Below, in pieces: positions 31,373 to 41,210 of a DNA stretch of 51,312 nucleotides (position 1 is the stretch's first letter; each line of letters begins with the position of its first letter). The position numbers were made by a program, and so were the translations under genes. The notes below the pieces were generated by a model that saw only the letters and a program-made list of their open reading frames with translations, did no database searches and was not told where the DNA came from. Source of the DNA: Bacteroidota bacterium (GTDB taxonomy: Bacteria; Bacteroidota; Bacteroidia; UKL13-3). The DNA lies in NCBI GenBank assembly GCA_013298895.1, contig JAAFJM010000021.1, forward strand, positions 1 through 51,312, given 5' to 3'.

Positions 31373-31864
31373 TTGAACAAAGCAGCTTTTTTTGACCGTG
31401 ATGGTGTGTTAAACCTTGAGATTGGGGACTATATAAAACAATTTAGTGATTTTAAATTATTACCTCATATTTATGAAAATTTAAAGAATTTGCACCAAAA
31501 AGGGTACTTACTTTTTGTAATTACCAACCAAGGGGGCATTGCAAAGCAACAATATGACCATAAAACTTTGGCAGAAATGCATGATTTTTTGCAAGAAGAA
31601 AGCAAAAAAAATGGTTTTAAATTTACCGAAATGTACTATTGTCCGCATCACCCAGAAACAAGTGCTTGCCTTTGCAGAAAACCGGGTAGTTTAATGGTTG
31701 AAAAAGCTATTGCAAAATATAATATTGACCCAAGTAAAAGTTTTATGATTGGTGATAAAGAACGCGATGTAACTTGCGCTAACGGTGCCGGAGTTAAAGG
31801 ATATTTAATTGAACCTAACCAAGATTTTACTTTTATTGTTAACCAAGAAATTGAATTAAACTAG
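31373..31864 (+). CDS. GmhB-like HAD phosphatase (histidinol-phosphatase/heptose-bisphosphatase family)
   Basis: A 163-residue HAD enzyme of the HisB-N/GmhB family, which dephosphorylates heptose 1,7-bisphosphate or related sugars for LPS and glycoprotein assembly. Catalytic Asp8 and Asp10 lie in FFDRDGVLN; the second HAD motif is in FVITNQGGIAKQ, and the last is MIGDKERDVTCA. The family's zinc site is present as Cys90, His92, Cys99, Cys101 (CPHHPETSACLC). The start must be the TTG at 31373-31375, because only it supplies the strand before DRDGV. Divergent from the glycosyltransferase gene; followed by the MORN-vWA gene after 18 bases. Substrate specificity is not certain. Confidence 0.88.
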   Translation: MNKAAFFDRDGVLNLEIGDYIKQFSDFKLLPHIYENLKNLHQKGYLLFVITNQGGIAKQQYDHKTLAEMHDFLQEESKKNGFKFTEMYYCPHHPETSACLCRKPGSLMVEKAIAKYNIDPSKSFMIGDKERDVTCANGAGVKGYLIEPNQDFTFIVNQEIELN

Positions 31865-39414: not shown

Positions 39415-39981
39415 ATGGAATTAAAAGATATTGTAGCTGTATCGGGCCAAGGTGGATTACACAAAATTATTGGTCGCACAAAAAATGGATTAATTTTAGA
39501 AACAATTGGTGTAGGTAAAAAATTTGCTACTGGTTACCAAGATAGAGTGAGTATTTTAGAAGATATTAGCATGTACACCTTAAGCGGTGATATGAAATTA
39601 TCGGAAGTTCTTTATAAAGCTCATAACGCAGGAAACGTTCCTGCTGCTAAAGATGATGCAAAAACACAACGTAAATTTTTAGTTGATTTGATTCAATTAG
39701 ATAGCGAACGCGTATATGATAGCGATATTAAGAAGTTTTTTACTTGGTTCAATGCTTTGAAAGATGTTTTGGATTTTTCTAAATTAATGGATGAAGAAAA
39801 AACAGAAGCGGTTGAAAATGCCAGTGAAGTGGAAGTAGAAGCTAAAGAAGAAAAACCTAAAAAAGCAGTAGCTAAAAAAACAGCAACTCCTAAAGCAACA
39901 GCACCTAAAAACACTACGCCTAAAACTAGTACAAAAGGAGCAGGAGCTTCAAAAACTACCTACCGTCCAAAATCAGTATAA
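39415..39981 (+). CDS. DUF5606-type protein
   Basis: A 188-residue cytoplasmic protein with a conserved N-terminal 130 residues (MELKDIVAVSGQGGLHKIIG, RTKNGLILETI, KFATGYQDRVSILEDISMYT, VYDSDIKKFFTWFNAL), a family I know as DUF5606, widespread and nearly restricted to Bacteroidota. The C-terminal 55 residues are low-complexity and rich in Lys, Ala, Thr and Pro (KKAVAKKTATPKATAPK), like histone H1-type tails, so nucleic acid binding is possible. It has its own promoter and terminator (40001-40033). Function is not known. Confidence 0.8.
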   Translation: MELKDIVAVSGQGGLHKIIGRTKNGLILETIGVGKKFATGYQDRVSILEDISMYTLSGDMKLSEVLYKAHNAGNVPAAKDDAKTQRKFLVDLIQLDSERVYDSDIKKFFTWFNALKDVLDFSKLMDEEKTEAVENASEVEVEAKEEKPKKAVAKKTATPKATAPKNTTPKTSTKGAGASKTTYRPKSV

Positions 39982-40142: not shown

Positions 40143-41153
40143 ATGGAATTATATTTAGACTCAGCCAATCTTAAAGAGATTGAAGAAGGCTTTAAATTAG
40201 GCTTTTTAAATGGTTTAACTACCACTCCTACATTTATGCAACGTGAAGGTATTACCGACATTGATGGCATGATTGTAAAACTTTCAAAAATAGTACCTGT
40301 ACTTCAAATTGAAGCTTTAGGTGATACTGCGGAAGATATTTTAAAAGAGGCTCAACGCCAATTAGACTTAGGATTAGATATTAAAAAAACGGTATTTAAA
40401 ATTCCTGTTTCGTTAGAAGGTGTTAGAGCTTGTAAAATGTTACGCGACCATGGAATGATGGTTAACGTACATTTAGTTTATACCTTACAACAAGCCTATA
40501 TGGCTATGCAAGCTGGTGCTACTTATGTATGTCCATTGGTAGGTCGTTTGCAAGATCAAGGACATGATGCATTAGATTTAGTTGCTCAAATTGTTGAAGC
40601 AGTAGATCATTATGGTTACAATACCAAAGTGATGTTCTCATCGGTTCGTACTATGGAGCATATTCGTAATGCATTAAACTTAGGTGTTCATACCATTACT
40701 GTTCCATTAAAAATAATGAAACAATTAACTGAAAATCATTTTACAACAGTAGGAACTGATCAGTTTATTCAAGATACTCGCTTAATGACTGTAAGAGTTA
40801 AAGAAGCTTTAAATGGTATCAATCCAATTGTTGACGGTAATACTAATTTAGCAGAAGCTATTGTTAAAATGACTGAGTATGGCTTTGGTGCAATTACAGT
40901 TGTTAATGCTGATGGAAGCCTAAAAGGTGTATTTACCGATGGCGATTTACGCAGAAAATTAACAGAGGCTGGTAGAGATGTGTTAAGCAAAAACATTGGC
41001 GATTTTACTTACAACCAACCAATCGCTATTGAAGGTGGTGCATTGTTAAACGAAGCTGCTGGCTTATTCAAATCTACTAAAGTTGATACTATTTTGGTTA
41101 CTGAAAACGGTAAGCCAATTGGTATGTTAGATATTCAAGATTTAGAAGCATAG
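40143..41153 (+). CDS. Transaldolase/fructose-6-phosphate aldolase-like enzyme fused to KdsD-like CBS pair
   Basis: A 336-residue cytoplasmic protein. Residues 1-215 form a TIM-barrel of the small transaldolase/FSA type: MELYLDSANL with Asp6, TTTPTF at 26-31, and the Schiff-base lysine Lys86 in VFKIPVSLEG. GATYVCPLVGRLQDQGHDAL at about 125-144 and VMFSSVRT follow at the places expected in FSA. Residues about 225-336 are two CBS motifs; GVFTDGDLRRKL (262-273) and IGMLDIQDL (326-334) closely resemble the CBS pair of arabinose-5-phosphate isomerase KdsD (GIFTDGDLRR in E. coli). In KdsD that module follows a SIS domain; here it follows an aldolase. Ends at its own terminator. Reaction and ligand are unknown; regulation by a nucleotide or CMP-Kdo-like ligand is inferred. 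Confidence 0.85.
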   Translation: MELYLDSANLKEIEEGFKLGFLNGLTTTPTFMQREGITDIDGMIVKLSKIVPVLQIEALGDTAEDILKEAQRQLDLGLDIKKTVFKIPVSLEGVRACKMLRDHGMMVNVHLVYTLQQAYMAMQAGATYVCPLVGRLQDQGHDALDLVAQIVEAVDHYGYNTKVMFSSVRTMEHIRNALNLGVHTITVPLKIMKQLTENHFTTVGTDQFIQDTRLMTVRVKEALNGINPIVDGNTNLAEAIVKMTEYGFGAITVVNADGSLKGVFTDGDLRRKLTEAGRDVLSKNIGDFTYNQPIAIEGGALLNEAAGLFKSTKVDTILVTENGKPIGMLDIQDLEA

Positions 41154-41172: not shown

Positions 41173-41210
41173 AAAAAAAGACGTTAATTTTTAAGTTAAC
41201 GTCTTTTTTT
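41173..41210 (+). terminator. Terminator after the transaldolase-CBS gene
   Basis: AAAAAAAGACGTTAA and its complement form a 15-bp stem with an 8-base loop and T tract; the A tract on the left side means it could also serve the minus-strand mini genes ending at 41226. Confidence 0.88.

Follow-up and report, generated by a model that had tools for sequence, protein, structure and literature searches.

A transaldolase-type barrel joined to a KdsD-type CBS pair

The window analyzed here is a stretch of 51,312 nucleotides from a contig of a Bacteroidota bacterium. On its plus strand lies a gene that encodes a transaldolase/FSA-like domain followed by a pair of CBS domains (Table 1). In the protein, Pfam detects TAL_FSA (PF00923) at residues 3 to 201 (E value of 6.6e-35; 121.3 bits, with a gathering cutoff of 27) and two CBS stretches (E value of 6.9e-15), with the CBS pair at residues 229 to 334, in agreement with the two-domain arrangement originally predicted for this open reading frame. 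No match to a SIS domain was found by Pfam in the fusion protein.

The best NCBIfam relatives of the CBS part are KpsF, KdsD, and GutQ. The kpsF model (TIGR00393) matches residues 215 to 329 (6.8e-17) through its profile positions 153 to 267 only, and the fusion scores below the cutoffs of the KdsD, KpsF, and GutQ models. In a PDB sequence search, the top match confined to the CBS part was 4o9k, an entry named arabinose 5-phosphate isomerase, whose CBS pair presumably binds CMP-Kdo. Residues T265, D266, G267, L269, and R270 are conserved in at least 90% of the fusions and likewise in 33 KdsD proteins. Judged by these similarities, the C terminus is a CBS pair of the KdsD/KpsF type, as had been proposed, and the SIS domain is absent.

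An AlphaFold model based on an alignment of 45 sequences has a mean pLDDT of 88.3 and a pTM of 0.59. Its residues 1 to 197 superpose on the transaldolase 3s0c (Z score of 28.8; rmsd of 1.4 over 194 residues), which agrees with the barrel expected at the outset; the structure comparison list was filled by such barrel matches, so the CBS part was barely probed and nothing against it is implied.

Table 1. Features of the fusion gene and of its surroundings, in window coordinates
Feature	Position	Strand	Basis
Whole gene, transaldolase/FSA-like domain plus CBS pair, 336 aa plus stop	40143..41153	+	ORF call, Pfam, homologues
TAL_FSA (beta/alpha)8 domain, residues 1-215	40143..40787	+	Pfam, structure match
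KdsD-like CBS pair, residues 225-336, FTDGDLRR at 264-271	40815..41150	+	Pfam CBS, kpsF model, conserved residues
Lys86, predicted Schiff-base lysine	40398..40400	+	K in 86/86 fusions and 25/25 plain transaldolases
Thr28, fusion-specific change	40224..40226	+	T in 86/86 fusions, N in 25/25 plain transaldolases
His110, fusion-specific active-site change	40470..40472	+	H in 86/86 fusions, T in 25/25 plain transaldolases
GmhB-like heptose-bisphosphate phosphatase	31373..31864	+	PRK08942, 2.9e-43, under cutoff
DUF5606+DUF6852 protein	39415..39981	+	
AT-rich stem with T-runs	41173..41210	-	Terminator-like; 1 found vs 0.6 expected

The DUF5606+DUF6852 protein encoded just 5' of the fusion has no apparent link to Kdo, and 7 of the 86 fusion loci have a homologue of it close by on the strand of the fusion. 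Directly 3' of the gene is the AT-rich stem, and a promoter scan returned 4 sites, with 6.2 expected. The GmhB-like gene in the window, together with GmhA in the genome, fits a heptose-containing lipopolysaccharide.

The fusion as a conserved family

Although 351 of 395 sampled genomes of the phylum show some match to the fusion at an E value of 1e-15 or below, the whole fusion is encoded in only six of them (G000, G091, G146, G190, G292, and G385, from families f1, f3, f9, f11, and f18); outside these six, among the matches listed, the similarity extends little past the barrel. A contig scan yielded 293 relatives, the 213 weaker of which were left out. The best 80 of the 293 all cover residues 1 to 334 or further with at least 77% identity, and nearly all of them stand in records titled Bacteroidetes, Bacteroidota, or subgroups thereof; two with other titles (L062, Saccharibacteria; L102, Azovibrio) were taken as probable mislabelled bins. 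Because the 80 loci and the six sampled genomes all encode the whole fusion, it is not an assembly artefact. With full length in 86 of 86 homologues, the single-frame architecture is upheld, and the transaldolase-CBS fusion is confirmed as a real, conserved family. Carriage on plasmids was considered and rejected, as no single stretch in any of 202 matching plasmid records covers 80% of the fusion. Among the matches listed from the open-license PMC literature, no description of a transaldolase-CBS fusion or of a KdsD replacement was found.

Near-exclusion of KdsD and the fusion

KdsD makes D-arabinose 5-phosphate (Ara5P) for Kdo, and the enzymes that we know of for this step of Kdo synthesis are SIS-domain proteins. 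Whether Bacteroidota with the fusion also keep a SIS-CBS KdsD, a question raised with the original prediction, was surveyed in 56 of the 86 fusion genomes (the six sampled ones and those of 50 of the 80 loci, hand-picked without a fixed rule, with shorter-contig loci mostly left out and 30 genomes outside the search). KdsD exceeds its cutoff in 3 of the 56 (G415, G422, and G426), KdsA in 55, and KdsB in 54, counts that are not independent events, the fusion genomes being related to one another. In the 395-genome sample, KdsD is over the cutoff in 277 genomes and KdsA in 286. If a match with an E value below 1e-40 is taken as KdsD-like (283 genomes, 277 over the curated cutoff and 6 under it), then among the 287 sampled genomes with KdsA such a match occurs in 0 of 6 with the fusion versus 276 of 281 without it (Fisher P value of 6e-10, kinship ignored).

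The genome of the window itself has KdsA, KdsB, KdnB, and WaaA. A single-domain SIS isomerase, of the sort present in Bacteroides, was sought there as a hidden source of Ara5P and rejected, since all five SIS matches are otherwise accounted for (GmhA, MurQ, a PGI/PMI-like protein, and two in one 624-amino-acid frame read as GlmS).

Some genomes depart from this pattern. Five (G023, G200, G272, G303, and G358, the last 66% complete) have KdsA with neither a KdsD-like match nor the fusion, and other Ara5P routes may therefore exist. Three others (G411, G440, and G426, the genomes of L057, L104, and L079) have two KdsA genes each, one typical and one fusion linked, with KdsD in G426 only; two Kdo routes may thus coexist in one genome. 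Both the 3 of 56 genomes that hold the fusion together with KdsD and the typical KdsA without KdsD in G411 and G440 count against the explanation that we prefer, a replacement of KdsD by the fusion.

Operon context and the Kdo8N pathway

The fusion gene often lies in an operon of the form waaA-kdnA-kdnB-kdsA-fusion-kdsC-like-kdsB, the gene order found at locus L111. In the DNA around the 86 fusions, a KdsC-like HAD phosphatase is the commonest neighbor (59 loci), and KdsA is encoded in 43 loci, KdnB in 38, KdnA in 37, KdsB in 27, and WaaA in 10; the first five occur all together in 12. Restricted to loci with sufficient flank, the counts are 49/67 for the KdsC-like protein, 34/71 for KdsA, 33/66 for KdnB, 31/63 for KdnA, 21/65 for KdsB, and 9/63 for WaaA. 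The partners lie on the strand of the fusion almost throughout, and in 43 of the 86 loci kdsA is at most 1.9 kb upstream on the same strand. Sixteen of the 86 loci, the window's own among them, show no partner gene in the DNA examined, which counts against our preferred explanation; the genome of the window scatters these genes over several contigs (KdsA and KdnB on C23, KdsB on C10, WaaA on C1, and the fusion on C14).

On L111, KdsA and KdsB (TIGR00466) exceed NCBIfam cutoffs, WaaA matches PF04413 and is under the NCBIfam WaaA cutoffs, and the KdsC-like HAD phosphatase (L111:7092-7787) is weakly KdsC (6.6e-14), far below cutoffs. KdnA matches PDB entry 5k8b (1.6e-124) and KdnB matches 5k8c (1.4e-125); the entry names make them Kdo8N transaminase and Kdo 8-oxidase, respectively, from an organism that we take to be Shewanella. 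Kdo8N appears as a known Shewanella core sugar in passages of PMC6357163. The operon looks like one for the synthesis of 8-amino-Kdo (8-amino-3,8-dideoxy-Kdo; Kdo8N) in which only a source of Ara5P would be missing. WaaA is present in all six genomes tested for it, including that of the window.

KdnB was found in 54 of the 56 fusion genomes (it is missing from G292 and G413). Of 188 sampled genomes, 15 have it; 3 of these carry the fusion and 12 lack it. Identity to the KdnB of G249, a genome discussed below, is 40 to 53% in the 12 fusion-less genomes versus 64 to 78% in fusion genomes. All 12 have a KdsD-like match, so that Kdo8N may be expected without the fusion, a further point against our preferred explanation. 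In G292 (L005 and L220), the fusion, the fusion-linked kind of KdsA, and the KdsC-like protein are present and KdnB was not found; the module may therefore work for plain Kdo as well.

These data bear on the simplest alternative, that the protein is an ordinary transaldolase of central metabolism, or a fructose-6-phosphate aldolase, with a CBS tail acquired by chance. Its fold and Schiff-base residues are indeed typical of the family, but it reaches only 164.1 bits with the FSA/TalC equivalog model (TIGR00875; curated cutoff, 245.95), and a separate plain transaldolase exists in most sampled genomes and in that of the window, where it shares 35% identity with the fusion. Nor would an ordinary enzyme explain the kds/kdn operon or the near-exclusion with KdsD. 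A plain transaldolase with an odd tail was rejected on the separate genomic transaldolase and the operon and exclusion data, and we consider this reading very improbable.

A divergent KdsA and the exchange in G249

The KdsA encoded beside the fusion differs from that of genomes with a KdsD-like match at fixed positions (among them A47D, R106M, K125H, Q188R, P190Y, and S232C; 43/43 versus 21/21). Positions are in Aquifex numbering, with the ruler checked at 106. The 21 comparison proteins were taken from the better-scoring KdsAs of genomes with a KdsD-like match, and two of these KdsD-like matches, in G238 (1e-46) and G347 (1e-48), are taken to be under the KdsD cutoff; the remaining KdsAs were excluded from the contrast. 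The KdsA of the window's genome carries M106, H125, and R188. We assume that R106M and Q188R lie near the Ara5P site. The parts of PMC6650799 and PMC3052366 consulted do not settle the roles of R106 and Q188.

This special KdsA subfamily is confined to 7 of the 395 genomes, namely the six with the fusion and G249. The latter lacks the fusion (best match, 1.9e-38), has a KdsD match of 3.0e-95 (by score alone), and carries a kdnA-kdnB-kdsA-kdsC-like-kdsB operon. In the KdsA tree, G249 falls within the special group, where its sister is G190 (99/87), a genome with the fusion; the tree carries a long-branch warning on the join of typical and special KdsAs, and the G249-G190 pair is outside the long rows. 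This single case suggests that one and the same special KdsA is supplied either by KdsD or by the fusion, an argument for Ara5P as the product of both.

The altered KdsA and KdsC-like proteins also permit another view, in which the acceptor may be other than Ara5P. The fusion would then make a different aldose phosphate, which the altered KdsA would join to phosphoenolpyruvate to give a Kdo-like sugar, to be aminated by KdnB and KdnA. The fixed differences, the restriction of the special KdsA almost entirely to fusion genomes, and the divergence of the KdsC-like phosphatase all speak for such a change. However, G249 pairs the special KdsA with a KdsD match, all four KdsAs checked retain the NRSS motif, KdsB of L111 (like its WaaA in the Pfam search) exceeds the model cutoff, and KdnA and KdnB closely resemble their Shewanella counterparts. 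We regard a different sugar as unlikely.

The absence of KdsD, the co-occurrence with KdsA and KdsB, the operon, and the exchange in G249 indicate that the fusion most likely supplies Ara5P. The original prediction of an Ara5P source in place of a SIS-CBS KdsD is well supported by the co-occurrence, the operon, and the one KdsD-for-fusion swap, and as to the role by itself, the provision of the KdsA acceptor in KdsD's place, our confidence is high.

Active site and possible chemistry

For the active site, the 86 fusions were compared with 25 plain Bacteroidota transaldolases (that of the window's genome and the 24 best-scoring ones with loci). D6, T26, T27, E57, K86, N108, R135, S167, and R169 are kept in the fusions relative to the plain enzymes; they are presumably Schiff-base and phosphate-site residues, to go by their counterparts in TalB and FSA. 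Thus, of the residues that mark membership in PF00923, the Schiff-base Lys (K86, as originally predicted), the catalytic Asp (D6, likewise), and the water-site Glu (E57) are present in 86 of 86 fusions; the Asn of the TTNPS motif and the catalytic-water Thr have given way to Thr28 and His110 in all 86. The TTTPT motif, which had been read as a landmark of the family, is therefore a deviation from it.

Six differences between the fusions and the plain transaldolases are without exception: Thr28 (for Asn), His110 (Thr), Cys130 (Ser), Leu132 (Phe), Gln137 (Asp), and Ser166 (Ala). In addition, Phe165 of the fusions stands for Val, Ala, or Ser. Positions 28 and 110 presumably correspond to Asn35 and Thr156 of TalB, which we take to be the donor-hydroxyl and catalytic-water residues. 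The changes at His110, Thr28, and Leu132/Phe165/Ser166 suggest that the chemistry of the fusion may have moved, and the larger side chains at 110, 165, and 166 could favor a donor of smaller size, for example glycolaldehyde.

From these residues and from FSA-type chemistry, we infer the product, donor, and CBS ligand as follows. The transaldolase-type barrel would make Ara5P, which KdsA would join to phosphoenolpyruvate. Most likely, Lys86 would bind glycolaldehyde as an enamine, the enamine would add to glyceraldehyde 3-phosphate (G3P) held by Arg135, Ser167, and Arg169, and hydrolysis would release Ara5P. The KdsD-like CBS pair would serve regulation, with CMP-Kdo or CMP-Kdo8N, the end product of the pathway, as its probable signal. 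Ara5P corresponds to fructose-6-phosphate minus C-1, so that replacing dihydroxyacetone by glycolaldehyde as the donor would be a short step. Reaction of glycolaldehyde with G3P would fit the retained Schiff-base residues and the known activity of Escherichia coli FsaA, for which passages of PMC9947464, citing Schurmann and Sprenger, state Ara5P as the only product from these substrates and passages of PMC6900487 report cleavage of Ara5P with a KM of 0.65 mM and a kcat of 3.6 per s. The title of PDB entry 3upb, in our structure match list, describes a transaldolase to which Ara5P is covalently bound.

The source of glycolaldehyde is the weak point of the aldol route, and here the chief rival, an isomerase in a transaldolase fold, has its advantage. 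The barrel would convert ribulose-5-phosphate, a ready precursor, into Ara5P, with Lys86, His110, and Glu57 transferring protons via an enediol. Such an enzyme would fill the same role by other chemistry, so that the exchange of the fusion with KdsD agrees with it equally, and it could account for His110 and the other changes, invariant in the 86 fusions and absent from the 25 plain transaldolases. The Schiff-base set of D6, E57, K86, and N108, kept in 86 of 86 fusions, speaks against it, particularly Asp6, for which an isomerase would have no evident need; moreover, we know of no isomerase in the transaldolase family. We consider the isomerase reading doubtful, though far from negligible.

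For the aldolase reading, the whole statement, that the fusion is a nonhomologous replacement of KdsD in the Kdo8N branch of lipopolysaccharide biosynthesis with aldol chemistry included, seems to us somewhat more probable than its negation. The fuller version, a natural Ara5P synthase that serves Kdo or Kdo8N by a C2 + C3 aldol route and keeps CMP-sugar feedback through a KdsD-type CBS sensor, we hold to be evenly balanced. The original prediction is thus partly supported: its role for the protein stands, and it had missed the Kdo8N-like pathway, the unusual KdsA, and the differences from all 25 plain transaldolases at several active-site residues.

Relation to known systems and implications

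With KdsD, KpsF, and GutQ the fusion shares a C-terminal CBS pair of the same type and an apparent place in the Kdo pathway, and the two are nearly mutually exclusive across genomes; they differ in the catalytic domain, which is SIS in the former and a transaldolase barrel in the fusion. The fold, the Schiff-base lysine, Asp6, and the phosphate-site residues are common to the fusion, E. coli FsaA, and the small transaldolases, whereas the CBS domains and the invariant Thr28, His110, Cys130, Leu132, and Ser166 set the fusion apart. For FsaA, both synthesis and cleavage of Ara5P are known (according to the passages cited above), whereas this activity is a proposal for the fusion. Relative to the Shewanella Kdo8N pathway, the fusion operon has homologues of both enzymes, KdnA and KdnB, but here they are accompanied by the aldolase-CBS fusion and an unusual KdsA.

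Engineered glycolaldehyde routes that combine FsaA and KdsD (the GAA pathway, in passages of PMC9947464, and glycoptimus, in passages of PMC6900487) use the same interconversion of glycolaldehyde plus G3P and Ara5P by a class I aldolase. Those routes are man-made, whereas the fusion is proposed to be a natural, dedicated enzyme that carries its own CBS domains. The fusion would offer a dedicated Ara5P aldolase to the engineering of glycolaldehyde assimilation, for which passages of PMC9947464 name a higher-affinity enzyme as one possible improvement.

Our analysis indicates that, in a Kdo8N-type pathway of Bacteroidota, the fusion most likely does the work of KdsD. The place of KdsD appears to be held by an unrelated fold that carries the same kind of regulatory module; the catalytic domain has apparently been exchanged and the sensor kept. 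Should the aldol route be right, it would point to a physiological pool of glycolaldehyde in these bacteria. The replacement would explain lipopolysaccharide synthesis in Bacteroidota that lack KdsD.
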